Assembly (NCBI RefSeq): GCF_000011565.2 | Contig: NC_005861.2 | Location: forward strand, 2,232,001-2,296,000 | Reading direction: 5' to 3' | Length of the DNA: 64,000 nucleotides | From: Candidatus Protochlamydia amoebophila UWE25 | Lineage (GTDB): Bacteria > Chlamydiota > Chlamydiia > Chlamydiales > Parachlamydiaceae | Part shown: positions 12,682 to 20,661 of the stretch, piece by piece | Layout of the letters: every line of letters starts with the position of its first letter | Numbering within the stretch: position 1 is the first letter of the stretch | Translations under genes and position numbers: made by a program | The notes under the pieces: model-generated | Told to the model about the DNA's origin: nothing | Databases searched by the model: none | Seen by the model: the letters and a program-made list of their open reading frames with translations, nothing else

Positions 12682-13010
12682 AATAATAAAAATGACTTCG
12701 CTTTTTCCACTCTGATTTGAAATTGATTAGATTGAAAAGAAGAACAATTCATCTTTTCAATTTATTAGAGTGCAAATCTTGTTGTTCTTATTGCAGTGGT
12801 AAGTCAGTCTTCAAATAAAGAAATCCTCATCATAATTTAGTTTTTTATCCTACTAATAAACTTCAAAAAGTGTTTATCTATTTAAATTTTTGAAATTTTA
12901 TTGCTTTATTTTAGCACTCTACATACAAGTGATGTATTCAAAAGATGTTTAATTCCAGGCGAGCGTAAGAAATTTATCTATCTCGCGTTAATTTGAAAAG
13001 GAGACGATTC
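12682..13010. other. Spacer with a weak hairpin
   Basis: About 330 AT-rich bases. A perfect 10-base inverted repeat at 12731-12740 / 12752-12761 may end the rsmD transcript, although no T run follows. AAAAGGAG at 12996-13003 is the ribosome binding site of the next gene. Confidence 0.4.
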
Positions 13011-13988
13011 ATGTTTAGATCTCTGGTCGCTTTGATGGCCATTTGCCTAATGACTTTATCTACGTTGTGTATTGCCAGTTGTCAACAAAGTGTGGAAATG
13101 GGTGTAGGTTGGAGACGAGATAAGCTAAATTGGAAGTTAAAAAATATAGAGCTGGATCAGATTTCTGGAAATGTGGATTCCCATATACAATTTAAAAAAC
13201 TTGAGTTGTACATGGCTTATGCAAAAGCAAAATGGATCGGCTCAAAATATTATGTGCGTTTATCTGCTGACTACGGAACATCTTTCAAAGGAGAAGCAAG
13301 AGAGCATTTTCAGTTGGATACACCCTTATTAAACAAAGATATTTTAGTAAATACACATGATCCTATTAAAAAAAGAAGTGAAGTCTACGACTTTGACATC
13401 GCCACAGGTTATCCTTTAAGTTTCTGTTACGGACGTTTGAATGTGGTTCCTTTAATCGGTTTTTCTTTTCATCGCCAACATTTAAGAGTTAAAGGAAAAA
13501 AAGATTCTTCCTCTTCTTCGTCTTATTTTTCTCCTATCTCTTCCTCTAACCCACTCTATGGTAATGACTCTAATCCTTTTGTAAAACCATCCAGTGACTC
13601 AAATCCCATTATCGCCAACAAACTGGGACTTAATGTATCAAGACGGACAAGTACTTACCGTTTCAACTGGTATGGATTTTATTTAGGCACTGATATCGCC
13701 TACGCCCTTGATAAAGAATGGACTCTCTATGCAGAATTAGAAGCCCACTGTTTAGATAGTTGCCACCGTAAAAGAAAATCTTGGACAGGTGTGTATTTTG
13801 TTGATCATTACCATCGTAATCGTTGGGCTTGGGGTTTCAATACAAATTTAGGAACAACCTTTTGTTTATCTAATTGTTGGTATGGAAAGATTTCCTTGGA
13901 TTATAAATGGTTGAAATCTCATACCCGTAAAGATGAACTTAAATGGGAATCGGTTGGAATCAACGCAGCATTATCCCATTCTTTCTAA
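13011..13988 (+). CDS. Putative outer-membrane protein
   Basis: I do not recognise a named family. The product (325 residues from the chosen ATG) starts with a clear signal peptide (about 1-23). The remainder is rich in alternating aromatic/polar stretches typical of outer-membrane beta-barrels (RLNVVPLIGFSFH, RWAWGFNTNLGTTF) and ends in Phe, as many barrel proteins do. A Ser/Pro/Asn-rich insert at about 160-200 may be an exposed loop. The ATG at 13011 is chosen because AAAAGGAG is ideally placed; an upstream in-frame TTG at 12993 lacks one. Confidence 0.7.
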   Translation: MFRSLVALMAICLMTLSTLCIASCQQSVEMGVGWRRDKLNWKLKNIELDQISGNVDSHIQFKKLELYMAYAKAKWIGSKYYVRLSADYGTSFKGEAREHFQLDTPLLNKDILVNTHDPIKKRSEVYDFDIATGYPLSFCYGRLNVVPLIGFSFHRQHLRVKGKKDSSSSSSYFSPISSSNPLYGNDSNPFVKPSSDSNPIIANKLGLNVSRRTSTYRFNWYGFYLGTDIAYALDKEWTLYAELEAHCLDSCHRKRKSWTGVYFVDHYHRNRWAWGFNTNLGTTFCLSNCWYGKISLDYKWLKSHTRKDELKWESVGINAALSHSF

Positions 13989-14082: not shown

Positions 14083-15300
14083 TTAACAAGGAGAAAAAAC
14101 TAATTCTTGTTCTTCTTTGGGAAGAGAGAATGTTGCATAAATTTGAATGAGGAATAGTAAACCAAGCACAGCCAACGCTTTGATAGGTGCATAATTCTCA
14201 AAAAAAGCTGTCATTAACCCAACTGATCCTGGACCGATTGCTTCAGATATACACCAAACCATCCCCATTAAAAAAGCACTGATAGATCCTGCCTGCCCAG
14301 GTGCATAGCGTACACCAAGCGCAATTCCAATCGGATTCACAAGCGTCAATGAAGCTCCTAAAATAAAAAGTAATAGGAGAGAAAGCCACATAGAAAAACT
14401 TCCAAAAAACAAGATAAAATAAAAAGTCGCACAACTGACTATCCCAGCGTATAAGATGACTTGCCGAGGAGAGTATTTATCAGCTAAATAGCCAGCTGGC
14501 ACCATCATACATGCTCCTCCCAAAATTAAGCATAGATGCCCTCCTCCATAATAAATCCATTCGGCTAAACCTAGGGTTTTTAAAGCATCTGGTAAAATAA
14601 AAATCATCCCCCATAAAATGGATTGATTGGCCACTTGTGCTAAATAAAGCATTCGCAAGGGAATATGACAAAAAAAAGCCTTAAAATCTCTTAAAATACC
14701 CTTCTTTAAAGTATGCTGAACAGATTGTATCACGGGAAAACGATAAAAAATCAAAAAAAAGCTCAAAATAATGGCGGGGATGGCTAGTAAATACGTTTGT
14801 CCATTCATATTTTTATACACAAATAAAAAAATCAGTTGGCTAAAAGCAAGTCCTAAACTCCCTCCCGAAGCAAAAATAGCCATTAATAAGCCTCGCCTCG
14901 TTGGAATCAAACTTCCCATTAAACTGCCTGCAGCAGGATGAAAGCTACCTGAACCTAAACAGGTAAATAAGTAAAGACAAAATAAAATCCCATAATGGCT
15001 AAATTGGACTACAAGTGTACTAGCAACCACTAATAGCAATCCTAAAATCATTAAATGCTTTCGATAACCTCTGTCACTAAATGCTCCAAAAAATAATTGA
15101 GCTCCTTCCCCAATAAATGCTCCTGCTGCAACGACAAGGCCAGCTTTGGCGAAATCTAATTGAGCCATCGACTTATAGACAGGCCAAATTCCTAGCATTG
15201 TATCAATAAAAAAATGTGCTAACCATGTCAAAGCCAGTAACGGAGCTAACGATAATGGAATAGATTGTTTCGCAGAAAAAACCATACAAACCTTTTTCAA
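14083..15300 (-). CDS. MFS transporter, Fsr-like
   Basis: 405-residue inner-membrane carrier with about twelve hydrophobic helices in two halves. The inter-helix loop between TM2 and TM3 carries the MFS motif-A-like GAFSDRGYRKHLMILG. The segment CLGSGSFHPAAGSLMGSLIP resembles the FHP motif of the Fsr (fosmidomycin resistance) branch. Substrate is unknown; Fsr relatives are drug or small-molecule exporters. It is convergent with the outer-membrane gene. Confidence 0.85.
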   Translation of the reverse strand: MKKVCMVFSAKQSIPLSLAPLLALTWLAHFFIDTMLGIWPVYKSMAQLDFAKAGLVVAAGAFIGEGAQLFFGAFSDRGYRKHLMILGLLLVVASTLVVQFSHYGILFCLYLFTCLGSGSFHPAAGSLMGSLIPTRRGLLMAIFASGGSLGLAFSQLIFLFVYKNMNGQTYLLAIPAIILSFFLIFYRFPVIQSVQHTLKKGILRDFKAFFCHIPLRMLYLAQVANQSILWGMIFILPDALKTLGLAEWIYYGGGHLCLILGGACMMVPAGYLADKYSPRQVILYAGIVSCATFYFILFFGSFSMWLSLLLLFILGASLTLVNPIGIALGVRYAPGQAGSISAFLMGMVWCISEAIGPGSVGLMTAFFENYAPIKALAVLGLLFLIQIYATFSLPKEEQELVFSPC

Positions 15301-15555
15301 AATTTATCGAATATAACAACAATTTTTATTAGTTAAATTAAATTAATATTATAAATATAATAAAATAATTATAAATTTTTTTAAATAAATTAATGATTAA
15401 ATAGTTTCGATTATCAATTCAACAAAAACACTTTTTATCAAATAAAATTTCCAAATGATGATGGACAAAAAATTCTTATTGCTTTTATGGTCAGGTTAAA
15501 TTCAAAAAATTACTTAGTGAATTATCCTCTCTTTTAATTATACCATAGAGGCTTT

Positions 15556-16050
15556 ATGAAAATTAAAAATTTAGCAAAAGTTGTTTTTGCAACACTTTTA
15601 TTAGCCTCTGTTCAATCCATTAATGCACAAGCAACTTGTAAACAAGCTTCAAGCTATTCTCCCAACTTAAGCAAGGAAGATTGTGGCAGTCAAGTAAGTT
15701 TTGATTCTCAATCCCATTCTACTCGGAGTGATTTAGCTGATAATTATTCGTATGGATGTGACAATAGCCTTTACTCTTATAAAGAACATTCTAGAGGGTC
15801 TGAAACTAGCTATTCTTGTCGTTCAAAACAAAGTTCTGACAGAATGAACCGTTCTAATAGATATTATAATACAAGTTTTAATGTAGGGAATTATCCCTCT
15901 GGGATAAGCAGCTATTCGGGAACAAGTACCGGCTCTGGAATTAGCAATGGATATCATAGCACCCCTAATGGCACTTATAAAACTGATCGTCGGTATTATG
16001 ATCGAAATATCAAAGCTAATTTAGATGCTTATCATCAAATAAAGAGATAA
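15556..16050 (+). CDS. Small exported Cys-containing protein, putative MNIO precursor 1
   Basis: 164 residues with a signal peptide (about 1-25, ending in NAQA). The mature part is dominated by Ser, Tyr, Asn and Gly and has four cysteines (C28, C43, C68, C88), the last two inside YGCDN and YSCRS. No known domain is visible. It is the first of three same-strand genes with similar signal peptides that precede DUF692 and DUF2063 genes. In bufferin and HvfA systems the exported precursor whose cysteines are modified occupies this position. Its precursor role is inferred from context. A TAGAGG ribosome binding site precedes the ATG. Confidence 0.65.
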   Translation: MKIKNLAKVVFATLLLASVQSINAQATCKQASSYSPNLSKEDCGSQVSFDSQSHSTRSDLADNYSYGCDNSLYSYKEHSRGSETSYSCRSKQSSDRMNRSNRYYNTSFNVGNYPSGISSYSGTSTGSGISNGYHSTPNGTYKTDRRYYDRNIKANLDAYHQIKR

Positions 16051-16083
16051 GAGAACAAAAATATTAACCTTTTGGAGGAAAAA

Positions 16084-16524
16084 ATGGAAAACAAGAAAAA
16101 ACAATTAGTGAAAGCCGCTTTTGCAGCTTTAGTATTAGCATCTAGCCCTGTTACTGCTCAGACAACAGATGGAACAGCGACTGACGGTTGGGTAACTTCT
16201 GAGACATTGCTTGCGACGGCAGGTTGCGGTGCAAGCGACGGTTCTCATGGTTGTGGTGCAGCTACCCCTCCTCCAAAAGAAACAAGTGCAAAAATAGACA
16301 ACATATTAAACAATTCAAAACACACAACTGCATCTAATAACAACGGTAATACAGATAAAAACAATTATAGCCGATCTAGTAATTCAAATCTAGCAGATGC
16401 TACATCTAATACTAATAGTAACTGGAATACGTTATCAACGACAACAAATTCGATAGATGCCAAAAACCCCAATGAAATGAATACAAGTGACGGAGTAACA
16501 ACAAATCCGACGACTAAAAAATAA
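16084..16524 (+). CDS. Small exported protein with CGx(6)GCG motif, putative MNIO precursor 2
   Basis: 146 residues. The signal peptide (about 1-26) contains LVKAAFAALVLASSPVTAQ. The only two cysteines, C48 and C57, lie in TLLATAGCGA and GSHGCGAA, a Gly-flanked pair recalling the CG repeats of HvfA-type precursors. The remaining 80 residues are Asn/Thr/Ser-rich and probably disordered. The start is the ATG at 16084 with GGAGG upstream; an in-frame TTG at 16072 would begin inside that site. It is the strongest precursor candidate of the three, by position and by cysteine pattern. Confidence 0.7.
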   Translation: MENKKKQLVKAAFAALVLASSPVTAQTTDGTATDGWVTSETLLATAGCGASDGSHGCGAATPPPKETSAKIDNILNNSKHTTASNNNGNTDKNNYSRSSNSNLADATSNTNSNWNTLSTTTNSIDAKNPNEMNTSDGVTTNPTTKK

Positions 16525-16552
16525 TTACAAATTAAATTATGCGAGGAAAGTT

Positions 16553-17185
16553 ATGAAGAAAGGTCTAACTCAATCAGCTTTAGCAGCTCTGGTGCTCGCA
16601 TCAGCTCTGCCTATTGTCGCTCAAGCTGATCAACATTCGCAAGAGTTATTACTTGCAGCGGCTAGCTGTGGAGCTTATCATCCTAAACAAGGCAAAAGAG
16701 AAATTGCTGACAACTCTACTGGCACAAATTCCTATGTTGCGAACAATAATTCATACCAAATGAATTCAAATAGTAGCTATGAAAATATAAGCAATACTTA
16801 TAATGGGACAAGCACAAGTCCAGGAAATGATAGTGTAAGCACTCCAAATCTCAAGAATAATGACTGGAATGCAGCGCATATCTCTAATCATTCTTATTCT
16901 CAAACGGGTACGCAGTATCAATCAAACGCTAATGGCTATCACAGTTATAACAATGCAGAAGAAGTTGATTATAATCATGCTACATCTGCAGTGTCTAATA
17001 CAAGCTCTGAAGAGCAATTAGTGAGTTCACTTAACGGTGAAACACGTAAGATCTATGATAGCTTAAGTACTCAAGGTAAGGCTTTAGCAATTCAATTAGC
17101 TAGCCAAGATAATTACCGTGATAAGAATTTGGCTGTTAAAGAAGCGCAAAAAAGAACTGAAAAAGCAGACGTAATGGTTCGTTAA
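16553..17185 (+). CDS. Small exported protein with a single CGA motif, putative MNIO precursor 3
   Basis: 210 residues with a signal peptide (about 1-25) almost the same as in the previous gene (SALAALVLASALPIVAQA). One cysteine (C39) lies in LLLAAASCGAYHP, which aligns with the LLATAGCGA of precursor 2. The middle is Asn/Ser/Tyr-rich and low-complexity. The last 60 residues are more ordered, with a charged helix ending KEAQKRTEKADVMVR. This length and C-terminal extension are unusual for a RiPP precursor, so it may be a carrier or structural protein. GAGGA precedes the ATG. Confidence 0.65.
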   Translation: MKKGLTQSALAALVLASALPIVAQADQHSQELLLAAASCGAYHPKQGKREIADNSTGTNSYVANNNSYQMNSNSSYENISNTYNGTSTSPGNDSVSTPNLKNNDWNAAHISNHSYSQTGTQYQSNANGYHSYNNAEEVDYNHATSAVSNTSSEEQLVSSLNGETRKIYDSLSTQGKALAIQLASQDNYRDKNLAVKEAQKRTEKADVMVR

Positions 17186-17206
17186 TCTGTTTTGTCAAAT
17201 AGATGC

Positions 17207-17241
17207 ATGTGCGTGCCAGTAGTGGTTGCGCACATTTATTT
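17207..17241 (+). terminator. Candidate attenuating hairpin between precursor and enzyme genes
   Basis: ATGTGCG (17207-17213) pairs with CGCACAT (17229-17235), with partly paired bases inside. A T-rich tail follows. It lies 22 bases past the last precursor gene and 60 before the DUF692 gene. It could lower expression of the enzymes relative to the precursors. Confidence 0.5.
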
Positions 17242-17300
17242 TTCTAAACACCTTTAAAAGCTGACAAGTCACGTTCAATGACTTTTTAGATAGGCAAAAA

Positions 17301-18161
17301 ATGGCACCCCGTCAAATTCCAAATTTAGGCATTGGTATTGGATTACGTTTTCCCCATTTAGAAGATATTTTTAAATTCAAGCCAGAAATCGATTGGTTTG
17401 AAATCATCAGTGAAAATTTTATGTTAGATGAGGGTAAGTCTTTAGAGTATTTACAAAAAATTTTAGAAAGCTATCCCGTAGTTCAACATGGGGTATCCTT
17501 GGCAATTGGAAGTTCTGCTCCTCTTGATTACGCGTACTTAAAAAAACTCAAAGCACTCACTAAATTAACAAAAACTCCTTGGGTCTCTGATCACTTATGT
17601 TGGGGACACCAACCAGGCGCTCATTACCATGACTTACTTCCACTTCCTTATACACGAGAAGTCGTTGATTATGTGGCAGAAAGAGCTCGGATTGTTCAAG
17701 ATTATTTAGAAATTCCTTTTGCTTTAGAAAATCTTTCTTCTTATGTGGCATTTACACAAGATCAAATGCCAGAATGGGAATTTTATGCTGCCATTGTAGA
17801 AAAAGCAAACATTTACATGATGCTAGATGTCAATAATATTTATGTTTCTAGTCGAAATCATGGATTTGATCCCAAACTTTACTATCAAAATATTCCCCTA
17901 GAACGAGTCATTCAAATTCATTTAGCAGGTCACCAAGATTTTGGGGATTATGTCTTAGATACACACGATCATCCCGTCAGAGATGAAGTCTGGGAATTAT
18001 ATGCAGAAATCTATCCATTGACTGGAGGAGTTTCTACTCTTCTTGAATGGGATGACAATCTTTTATCTTTTGAAGAAACTTGGAAAGAAGCTTTAAAAGC
18101 CAAACAATTTCAAAAAAATATTTCTTCTCCTTTACCCTCTTCTTTAGTCAACTCTGTTTGA
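17301..18161 (+). CDS. DUF692 / MNIO-family iron oxidase (BufB/HvfB-like)
   Basis: 286-residue TIM-barrel enzyme of the multinuclear non-heme iron oxidative family, whose characterised members (MbnB, BufB, HvfB) modify cysteines of ribosomal peptides. Likely metal ligands are present in order: H63 (QHGVSL), D97/H98 (WVSDHLCW), E143 (ALENLS), D176/N178 (MLDVNNI), H207 and H211 (IHLAGH), the D/H cluster at 219-222 (THDH), and E247 (LLEWD). The N-terminus GIGIGLRFPH is typical. It is followed 6 bases later by the DUF2063 partner, the standard pairing. The substrate is inferred to be one or more of the three upstream exported proteins. Confidence 0.92.
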   Translation: MAPRQIPNLGIGIGLRFPHLEDIFKFKPEIDWFEIISENFMLDEGKSLEYLQKILESYPVVQHGVSLAIGSSAPLDYAYLKKLKALTKLTKTPWVSDHLCWGHQPGAHYHDLLPLPYTREVVDYVAERARIVQDYLEIPFALENLSSYVAFTQDQMPEWEFYAAIVEKANIYMMLDVNNIYVSSRNHGFDPKLYYQNIPLERVIQIHLAGHQDFGDYVLDTHDHPVRDEVWELYAEIYPLTGGVSTLLEWDDNLLSFEETWKEALKAKQFQKNISSPLPSSLVNSV

Positions 18162-18167
18162 GGATAA

Positions 18168-19064
18168 ATGAATAGAATTCGCAACTCAAGTTATAAACAA
18201 GTAAATATTCCAAAAGATCTTCAACTAATCCAGGAATGGTTTGCAAATGTTATTACTACACCTTTAGCAAAAAATGATACGATTCATCATAAAACTAAAA
18301 ACGGAGATTTAATCTCCGAGGAAGCAAAAAACTATATTGCTCCAAGCCCTACGCTTCTTCCTCATCAATGCATACAAATTTATAATCAACAATACTGGTG
18401 GCGATTAATTAACATACTTTATACAAATTTTCCGCTTCTTGTACGTTTGACAGGTTGCAAAATATTTAAAGAAAAAATTGCCATCCCTTATTTATCGGAA
18501 TGTCCTCCCAATCACTGGGCATTATCATTAGTAGGAGAGCGTTTACCGGACTGGATTTCTAAAAATTATAAGAGACCGGATCATTCACTGATAGAACAAG
18601 CTGTTCAACTTGACTGGGCTTTTACAGCTAGTTGGATTGCTTCTAAGCATATTCCTTTGAATCTCTCAGAACTCAACAAACAAAATCCGGAAGAGATTTT
18701 AAGAAAAACACTTTTTCTTCAGCCTCATATTCATCTTTTTAAATGGAATGTTAATTTATTTTTATTTCGAGAAGAATTAATAAAACAAGATATCCATTAT
18801 TGGACGAATCACCGCATTCCCCTACTTAAAAAAGAAGAGATTCATTACTACGTTCTTTATCGTACTGAAAAAAATATATTAGCGTGGAGAGAGGTCTTAG
18901 AAGGAGAGTTTTTCTTACTTCAACTTCTTCAACAAGGCATAAGTCTTGAAAAAGCTTGCGAAAAGATTGAACAACAAAGTACAAAACTTTACGAGCAAGC
19001 TTGCAATCATCTACAAAAATGGATCCAAAATTGGGCTCAGCAACATTGGCTAATTGAAAAATGA
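18168..19064 (+). CDS. DUF2063 MNIO-partner protein (BufC/HvfC-like)
   Basis: 298-residue partner of the DUF692 enzyme. In characterised systems this protein binds the precursor and presents it to the oxidase. The N-terminal domain (about 17-130) has the DUF2063 pattern: LQLIQEWFANVITTPL, IQIYNQQYWWRLINILYTNF, then LVGERLPDWI. The C-terminal part (about 165-298) matches the winged or helical extension seen in BufC-type proteins, with WREVLEGEFFLLQLLQQG recalling their final segment. No DoxX-type gene, often the fourth member of such operons, follows; the next gene is convergent. Confidence 0.88.
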   Translation: MNRIRNSSYKQVNIPKDLQLIQEWFANVITTPLAKNDTIHHKTKNGDLISEEAKNYIAPSPTLLPHQCIQIYNQQYWWRLINILYTNFPLLVRLTGCKIFKEKIAIPYLSECPPNHWALSLVGERLPDWISKNYKRPDHSLIEQAVQLDWAFTASWIASKHIPLNLSELNKQNPEEILRKTLFLQPHIHLFKWNVNLFLFREELIKQDIHYWTNHRIPLLKKEEIHYYVLYRTEKNILAWREVLEGEFFLLQLLQQGISLEKACEKIEQQSTKLYEQACNHLQKWIQNWAQQHWLIEK

Positions 19065-19071
19065 AGAGGTC

Positions 19072-19719
19072 TTAGAAATAGACCCCAAAACCAGCCCCTA
19101 ACTTCAAACCATCACAATTTAAGTGCTTCCAAACATGATTCCCATTAAAATCGTGTTTGCGTGAAAAATGAAATTGTTGGACAAAGTAATCAGCAAATAA
19201 ATCAATAAACGTCGTTGGTCCTATTGTCCATCTTAAACCAACTTTTGCAACAACTCCTACTCCATGCTTTGAAATATGTTTTTTTAAGGAAGAAAAGTAA
19301 GAAGAATAGCTACTGTCCCGACTAAAATCTTCCCAGCGATGCTTTATATGCAAAAATGAATAACAAGCTCCAGCTCCCGTATAAATATCTAAATAATTTG
19401 TTAAAGGATAGGTAAACTTAAAGCCTAAAGTGAGGGGAAGAATATAAATTCGATTCTTTTGTTTAAACATGCTATAGTCATCGCGCAAATTTCCTTTTTT
19501 ATTCATCCAATTGATCCCTGCCCAAACTTCAAAGAGTGGGTGAACGCGTTTGGATGTTTCGACTTGGTAGTCAATCAAACAAGAAGAATAAACTTTTCTA
19601 AATTGTTTAGAAGAGGGTTGAAAATAAGCGCCTCGAACCTCTAAAGTCCAATCAGATGCACATAAGCAAATAGGAAGTAAAAGAAAAAGAAGGAAAGAAT
19701 TAAATTTCATATTTTTCAA
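19072..19719 (-). CDS. Small outer-membrane beta-barrel protein
   Basis: 215 residues with a signal peptide (about 1-21). The mature part is an OmpW/OmpA-type barrel of about eight strands (EVRGAYFQPSSKQFRKVY, LTLGFKFTYPL, IYTGAGACYSF, LGAGFGVYF). It is a clear paralog of the product of 39435-40088: both share the RxAYFxPxSK-type start, the PLTLGxK strand, the YxGAGAxY strand, the FxDxFxDY strand and the G-x-GF/L-G-x-x-F end. It is convergent with the DUF2063 gene, with only 7 bases between. Function is unknown; members of this group are surface-exposed in environmental chlamydiae. Confidence 0.75.
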   Translation of the reverse strand: MKNMKFNSFLLFLLLPICLCASDWTLEVRGAYFQPSSKQFRKVYSSCLIDYQVETSKRVHPLFEVWAGINWMNKKGNLRDDYSMFKQKNRIYILPLTLGFKFTYPLTNYLDIYTGAGACYSFLHIKHRWEDFSRDSSYSSYFSSLKKHISKHGVGVVAKVGLRWTIGPTTFIDLFADYFVQQFHFSRKHDFNGNHVWKHLNCDGLKLGAGFGVYF

Positions 19720-19890: not shown

Positions 19891-20661
19891 ATGATGCGAC
19901 ATTTCAAAGAAGATCGGCTCGAGTGGCTAGAATTTGAGCTTTTAACAGATATTCCTCACTTAAAACATGCTGTTTTTCTACGTAAAGGGGGATATAGTGT
20001 TGATCCTTTTAATCAATTGAATGTGAGCTATTCTGTAGGAGACAATCCAATCTCAGTTGAAAAAAATCGTAGCTTGATTGAAAACAGTCTAAAAAATGGC
20101 ACTCCTCATACATTTAAAATGATTCATGGGCATGCTTGTCATGGCCATCAAGTCGCTCCAGTGGAGATCGATTCTCCTTCAACTATTCTGTTGACAGATG
20201 GTTTAACTTGCGCAACACCAGGCATTGCTTTAATGATGACCCATGCAGATTGTCAAATTGCTTTATTTTATGATCCTCAACATCACGTGATTGCGAATGT
20301 TCATGCTGGATGGAGAGGTAGTGTACAAAATATTTATGCAAAAACTATTACGCAGATGAAAGATCGATTTGGATCTGACCCTAAAAATCTACTTGTTTGC
20401 ATTTCCCCCAGTCTTGGACCTGAGGAATCAGAATTTATTCATTATAAAAATGAATTCCCTGAAGAATTTTGGGAATTTCAATTTAAACCAAATTATTTTG
20501 ATTTTTGGTCATTAACGGAGTATCAATTGCAAAAAGAGGGAATTCTTTTTCATCACATCGAAGTGGCAAGATTAAGTACATTTACAAATCCAAACGATTA
20601 TTTTTCCTATCGGAGAGAAAAAATAACGGGAAGGAATGCCACAATTATTATGCTTTTGTAA
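19891..20661 (+). CDS. pgeF: PgeF-type (YfiH, laccase-domain) purine/peptidoglycan-editing enzyme
   Basis: 256 residues of the YfiH/PgeF family, which corrects misincorporated amino acids in UDP-MurNAc peptides and has purine nucleoside phosphorylase-like activity in some members. The metal-site motifs are present: MIHGHACHGHQV (His, near 79-86), MMTHADCQIALF (C121) and NVHAGWRGSV (H138). Length matches the family. The MSxxxKRHRC-type editing function fits an organism with peptidoglycan and murI. It is followed 37 bases later by a histidine phosphatase gene. Confidence 0.88.
   Translation: MMRHFKEDRLEWLEFELLTDIPHLKHAVFLRKGGYSVDPFNQLNVSYSVGDNPISVEKNRSLIENSLKNGTPHTFKMIHGHACHGHQVAPVEIDSPSTILLTDGLTCATPGIALMMTHADCQIALFYDPQHHVIANVHAGWRGSVQNIYAKTITQMKDRFGSDPKNLLVCISPSLGPEESEFIHYKNEFPEEFWEFQFKPNYFDFWSLTEYQLQKEGILFHHIEVARLSTFTNPNDYFSYRREKITGRNATIIMLL

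Follow-up and report, generated by a model that had tools for sequence, protein, structure and literature searches.

Within a 64,000-nucleotide stretch of Candidatus Protochlamydia amoebophila UWE25 (contig NC_005861.2, positions 2,232,001 to 2,296,000; hereafter the window, by whose numbering all positions are given), we analysed an operon at 15556-19064 in which three genes for small, apparently exported proteins, the putative precursors, are followed by an MNIO (DUF692) enzyme and its DUF2063 partner. Taken as a whole, with the mechanism proposed below, the operon is probably a derived bufferin/captophorin operon of BufB2 (Cys-Lys) ancestry. Judged by sequence comparison, its precursors derive from a chlamydia-wide family of two-module bufferins by loss of a BufA2-like core. 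All five genes are intact and lie on the plus strand, with every frame open in the list of open reading frames (ORFs) of the window, and the features are as follows:

15556 to 16050, plus strand: precursor 1, a putatively exported, Tyr-rich protein of 164 amino acids with four unconserved Cys (ORF; leader module, E 1e-4; same-clade orthologues upstream of MNIO).
15847 to 16047, plus strand: conserved Cys-free tail of precursor 1, SSYxGTSTGPGxxNGYxxTPxGxY (alignment; 10 of 39 family genomes).
16084 to 16524, plus strand: precursor 2, a putatively exported protein of 146 amino acids with two Cys (ORF, start by alignment; leader module, E 5.9e-17).
16207 to 16260, plus strand: module N of precursor 2, LLATAGCGASDGSHGCGA, with Cys48 and Cys57 as probable modification sites (alignment, spacing survey).
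16553 to 17185, plus strand: precursor 3, a putatively exported protein of 210 amino acids with one Cys, Cys39 at 16667-16669 (ORF; leader module, E 2.1e-15).
17000 to 17182, plus strand: module C of precursor 3 without the six-Cys core, junction 17110/17111 (alignment gap; hhalign E 3.4e-10).
17201 to 17241, plus strand: hairpin, then a T-rich stretch, between precursors and enzymes, a probable leaky terminator (shuffle test, folding energy).
17301 to 18161, plus strand: MNIO (DUF692) of the BufB family (PF05114, 345.6 bits; NF050167, 317.1 bits).
18168 to 19064, plus strand: DUF2063-RRE partner (BufC, PME-type 1; PF09836, 43.7 bits; model matching 3DEE).

A first-pass annotation of the same DNA had described three exported-precursor genes ahead of a DUF692/DUF2063 pair spaced by 6 bases, with one, two and four Cys in the precursors. 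The ORFs and domain matches bear this out: MNIO ends at 18161 and the partner begins at 18168, and precursors 3, 2 and 1 contain one, two and four Cys, respectively. The start of precursor 2 was placed at the ATG at 16084 because relatives then align from the first residue. All three precursors are rich in Ser, Asn, Thr and Tyr, and their N-termini, with a basic start and a hydrophobic stretch, resemble signal peptides by composition alone. The genome consists of one 2.44 Mb contig and has MNIO in single copy.

The hidden Markov model searches that had been proposed for both enzymes gave clear matches, to PF05114 for MNIO (E 2e-103) and to PF09836 for the partner (E 3.5e-11). MNIO passes the curated cut-off of the NCBIfam BufB model NF050167 (310 bits) and fails that of the HvfB model (241.7 bits, cut-off 360). 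In line with the metal ligands noted by the first-pass annotation, the motifs HGVSL, SDHLCW, ALENLS, LDVNNIY, IHLAGH, DTHDHP and LLEWD align with the solved MNIOs 3BWW and TglH (8HCI), and the columns that hold iron in solved MNIOs are invariant in the MNIO alignment. A structure search with the model of the partner (predicted local distance difference test, pLDDT, 89.8) matched the DUF2063-RRE protein NGO1945 (3DEE, E 8.6e-6), with chain 8HI7_A of the TglHI complex also among the best structural matches; phmmer of the partner against the PDB gave no match. By its sequence and model, the partner is a full PME-type-1 protein, with DUF2063 followed by an RRE-like domain. Since the BufB cut-off is passed, the iron motifs are kept and the partner matches 3DEE and 8HI7_A, enzyme and partner are ordinary bufferin-type parts.

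The phylogeny relative to BufB, another check that had been suggested, groups the window enzyme with a BufA2-associated MNIO. Chlamydial MNIOs that have a DUF2063 neighbour fall into a single group (100/100) when plasmid references are included in the tree; this group adjoins a BufA2-linked reference (89/86) and stands apart from the DUF2282-linked ones (97/96). Directly after the presumed catalytic Asp, 56 of 63 chlamydial enzymes and both BufA2 references have a second Asp, and four DUF2282 references have T, S or A. A study of captophorin MNIOs assigned Asp at the specificity site to the Cys-Lys (BufA2) group and Phe to the Lys-Cys (EGKCG) group (PMC12668002); because we located the site through the ExDx motif and not on the published sequence, the chlamydial Asp would presumably be that Cys-Lys specificity residue. 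Chlamydiota also have a second, distant MNIO type (L100, L102, L112, L113, L117), 35-40% identical to the window MNIO, with no detectable DUF2063 neighbour and with the Phe of Lys-Cys enzymes in two of the four checked. One genome (G096, L054) has two extra weak MNIO-like matches close together, besides BufB.

The ancestry of the precursors becomes visible in relatives, in which one to five signal-peptide-like proteins are encoded upstream of MNIO and two modules recur. Module N, directly behind the leader, reads (L)LAxxGCGxxxCG. Among 63 precursors with Cys outside the core, the first Cys is followed by G, A or S in 52, and the second Cys most often stands five residues from the first (18 cases), the spacing of EGKCG repeats; in G060 the module reads GKCGAGKCGG and scores 15.6 bits with the HvfA repeat-domain model NF050137, below its cut-off of 19.5. 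Module C is C-terminal, MTEDELLxxLNxxGxxxYxSLxxEGKxLAxxxASxxC-core-DKNLAVK, and its core, CxGxNxCKGLNxCxTxxNxCAGxGxCKG, has six Cys, five of them invariant columns. The cores of relatives match the BufA2 model NF050166 with up to 47 bits (E down to 1.6e-12), and module C aligns with BufA2 of a Pseudomonas plasmid (hhalign E 1.1e-10), whose neighbours are a heavy-metal ATPase, a MerR regulator and a TolC gene. A low-confidence model of the six-Cys domain (pLDDT 69) hints that the core lies between helices. Both modules are found on one protein in several genomes, e.g. G095, G088, G082 and G060. Between G095 and G097 the ratio of nonsynonymous to synonymous substitution rates (dN/dS) is about 0.04 for the two-part precursor, 0.14 for the core-only precursor and 0.02 for MNIO, and these low values indicate that the precursors are real genes under constraint. 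Other variants are a precursor with many CGGKxGCGG repeats ahead of a BufA2-like core (L038:4151-4933, same contig as G069, L066), a 254-residue precursor that matches the core domain twice and thus has a duplicated core (L085, G048), and a 20-Cys, exported-looking protein of CCPTPKPK type two genes upstream of MNIO, at -1137..-688 from its start (L087, G059).

Precursor 3 of the window has the remains of this architecture. Its module C lacks 32 residues between LASQD and NYRDKNLAVK, exactly over the six-Cys core, and alignment to a core-bearing profile from which the window sequence had been excluded shows the same gap (hhalign E 3.4e-10). When the core profile was run over 234 Chlamydiota genomes, the window genome gave a truncated match only (model positions 3-38), and this search found no other core copy there. 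About ten other genomes have a core-less match like that of the window, with the leader and the flanking domain kept; on the MNIO tree, the majority of these genomes are closely related to the window genome. Two sister genera (G104 and G093) have a precursor-1-type gene, N-type genes, a core-less precursor 3, the hairpin, a core-only gene, MNIO and the partner, an order that looks like an older, intermediate layout. In the window MNIO directly follows the hairpin, so that, as this comparison shows, the core-only gene that stands between them in the sister genera is missing. The alignments show that the core was excised from precursor 3 in the window lineage, and precursor 1, with its Cys-free tail, is confined to this group. 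We do not claim that the core was lost once and cleanly; the MNIO tree requires several changes and is poorly resolved.

Searches with Pfam, NCBIfam and PADLOC returned nothing usable for the window precursors. DUF2282 (BufA1) had no Pfam match, repeated EGKCG motifs and HvfA models had no NCBIfam match, and the BufA2 six-Cys CKGxNxCKG core is in none of the three, in agreement with the first-pass annotation, which had set them apart from bufferins (DUF2282) and HvfA. A leader-plus-motif profile run over the whole 2.44 Mb genome found the three precursors only (5.9e-17, 2.1e-15 and 1.0e-4; next 0.6). A profile of the precursor 1 tail, built without G093 and G078, two of the ten family genomes that it matched, found it in every case upstream of the enzyme on the MNIO contig, and all ten belong to the group that holds most core-less members; by these matches, precursor 1 is a paralogue restricted to this clade, and its tail, free of Cys, is conserved. 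An unrelated RiPP (ribosomally synthesized and post-translationally modified peptide) system was rejected because precursor 3 is homologous to core-bearing precursors, and a defence system found no support. The earlier description of a divergent RiPP system therefore holds for the operon type, MNIO-DUF2063 with exported precursors, but not in leaving it unplaced, given the BufB model and the BufA2 side of the tree. Behind the CG motif, a further motif, [KR]..(I/V/L)A(D/E)N (PRREIADN, KRSSELAEND), occurs in 18 of 72 precursors, with about one expected from shuffles; it is present in the window at 15556-16050 and 16553-17185 and in relatives (e.g. L045, L048, L060, L088), and could be a cleavage or recognition site.

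Precursors and enzyme also go together across genomes. PF05114 occurs in 79 of the 234 genomes, including 34 of the 39 of the window's own family; eight listed genomes of 1.1-1.2 Mb from another family (G008-G015) gave no match. The core domain is found in 36 of the 79 MNIO-bearing genomes vs 1 of the 155 without MNIO (p 4e-19). The leader-module profile has matches in 31 of 39 family genomes, and 45 of 49 matches adjoin MNIO; its presence in 30 of 34 MNIO-bearing vs 1 of 5 MNIO-less family genomes (Fisher p 0.004) is partly circular, because some profile rows come from these genomes. The small genes are thus present beside DUF692 in relatives, one of the two points on which the first-pass annotation had let its interpretation stand or fall. 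Linkage is not strict, because G084 and G085 (L057, L058, L134) have precursor-like genes on contigs other than that of MNIO. This separation would suit a reading in which the small proteins belong to the envelope and are only neighbours of an MNIO pair with its true substrate elsewhere, an explanation that is highly improbable, as leader module and core domain track MNIO across genomes, their matches adjoin it, and no other leader- or core-bearing gene was found in the window's own genome.

The excised core, the absent core-only gene and the loss of the second Cys of precursor 3, which leaves it with one, could also mean that the precursors are decaying remnants of a system that is being lost, with little function left in enzyme or precursors. 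We consider this decidedly unlikely: none of the five frames is interrupted, about ten genomes have core-less precursors that retain leader and flanking domain, the active-site motifs of MNIO are intact, and most changes that separate the window MNIO from that of G101 are synonymous (dN 0.10, dS saturated). The core-less precursors of the window are 38-49% identical to those of G101, and a dN/dS test is inapplicable to them because the closest pairs are too diverged.

In the mechanism that we propose for a BufB2-derived operon, the Sec-type signal peptide of the precursors would double as recognition leader, and the DUF2063-RRE partner would present them to MNIO. By analogy with its family, MNIO would oxidise Cys to 5-thiooxazole in the short CGxxxCG motif that follows the leader, and the modified product would be exported and, in the periplasm or on the surface, bind a soft metal such as copper; ancestral precursors would also have borne the six-Cys BufA2-like core. 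In characterized members, the MNIO-partner pair converts Cys to 5-thiooxazole, with a loss of 4 Da each, absorbance at 305 nm and copper binding (PMC12668002). In the window, precursors 2 and 3 are expected to offer the remaining targets, their CG-motif Cys, which most likely still become copper-binding thiooxazoles, and copper buffering against the amoeba host is plausible.

Several points weigh against this proposal. For chlamydial members, chemistry and metal binding are extrapolated from the family. The window precursors have few, partly unconserved Cys, with a single one in precursor 3 and none of the four of precursor 1 conserved in its orthologues. The BufA2 scores of relatives are below the curated 60-bit cut-off, and no metal-resistance gene lies within the operon. 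FonBC was active only on a two-repeat substrate (PMC12668002), which makes turnover of the single Cys of precursor 3 doubtful. It is possible that, after core loss, the MNIO pair was re-purposed to modify only a handful of Cys, or other residues such as Tyr, Asn or Asp of the Tyr/Asn-rich tails, giving altered surface proteins and no metal chelator. The Cys-poor, Ser/Asn/Thr/Tyr-rich precursors, the Cys-free, Tyr-rich tail as the conserved part of precursor 1 and the ortho-tyrosine formation reported for other MNIOs (PMC12257519) are consistent with such a change, which is nevertheless unlikely: the enzyme still scores as a BufB and has the Asp associated with Cys-Lys specificity, and precursors 2 and 3, like those of relatives, still have a Cys-bearing CG motif after the leader. 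That the maturase pair was kept after core excision and now acts on two-Cys, one-Cys or Cys-free-tailed exported proteins, with a new kind of MNIO product, such as modified surface proteins, in chlamydiae associated with amoebae, may be entertained tentatively.

Whatever its product, the operon is divided by the hairpin ATGTGCGTGCC...GGTTGCGCACAT (17201-17241), which resembles the G104 hairpin located downstream of precursor 3, ATGTGCGCAAC...GTTGCGCACAT with a run of T. Most loci have a stable stem-loop between the last precursor and MNIO or among the precursors; in a scan of these gaps, the native sequence was more stable than every one of 60 shuffles in 26 of 39 loci, and in the window none of 60 shuffles was as stable. 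The window hairpin alone (-17.2 kcal/mol, z -2.3) is only moderately better than shuffles; a simple terminator scan did not list it, and no Rfam family matched in 15000-19200. A covariation count was dropped, as the stems align in shifted register. The simplest reading is a terminator that allows read-through and thereby keeps expression of the precursors higher than that of the enzymes, and in the proposed mechanism the hairpin would probably hold the enzymes below the precursors in this way.

The statement of the first-pass annotation that the operon has no DoxX gene is true locally: none is linked to it, and one unlinked DoxX gene lies elsewhere in the genome (G000:C1:1122348). In deep chlamydial branches DoxX follows the partner (G127, G122, G145, G164), its identity having been checked with Pfam for two of these four and for the copy in G068. 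The window genome has three heavy-metal ATPases. Among neighbouring genes, a divergent MFS transporter gene (14083-15300, minus strand) retains its position in many relatives (18 loci in the cluster), a Cu-oxidase_4 gene (PF02578, YfiH-like; 19891-20661) just past the operon recurs nearby in about 11 loci, probably as plain synteny, and a Protochlamydia outer membrane protein gene (PF17251, 305 bits) lies near the operon at 12993-13988.

MNIO/bufferin systems have been studied mainly in Pseudomonadota, and here such a system is nearly universal in one chlamydial family. A literature search found no papers on Protochlamydia with MNIO; chlamydiae are unmentioned in the main text of the 2025 MNIO/bufferin landscape paper, and the CG/core combination is not among the bufferin-domain fusions given there. 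Two motif classes on one precursor, and the excision of one of them, appear undescribed in the literature consulted; what is new is that precursors can be composite and that a metal-binding core has been excised naturally. The relatives, which carry CG/Lys-Cys-like and Cys-Lys motif classes on one polypeptide beside a single maturase, form a natural deletion series of modules, which makes it directly testable to which module the maturase responds, whether a single enzyme handles both classes, and whether the system shields amoeba symbionts from host copper.

Compared with known systems, the operon shares with Bufferin 1 (DUF2282, BufA1) the gene order precursor-MNIO-DUF2063, but its precursors have no DUF2282 and the MNIO tree separates both groups. 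With HvfA/oxazolin/fontiphorin systems (Lys-Cys, EGKCG) it shares a short CG motif that follows the presumed signal peptide, in many cases at the 5-residue Cys spacing of EGKCG repeats, and a G060 precursor reads GKCGAGKCGG; in contrast, the window has no Glu-Gly-Lys repeats, NF050137 gives only a sub-cut-off match in one relative, and its MNIO has Asp, not Phe. Unlike Bufferin 2 (BufA2-BufB2-BufC2, Cys-Lys captophorins), the window has longer precursors without the six-Cys core, encoded by three genes, and no linked DoxX, which is common but not universal in bufferin operons. Nevertheless, like Bufferin 2, it has a BufB-family MNIO with the Cys-Lys specificity Asp, a DUF2063-RRE partner and, directly upstream, precursors whose N-termini resemble signal peptides, and its chlamydial relatives add DoxX downstream in deep branches and the six-Cys core in many genomes.

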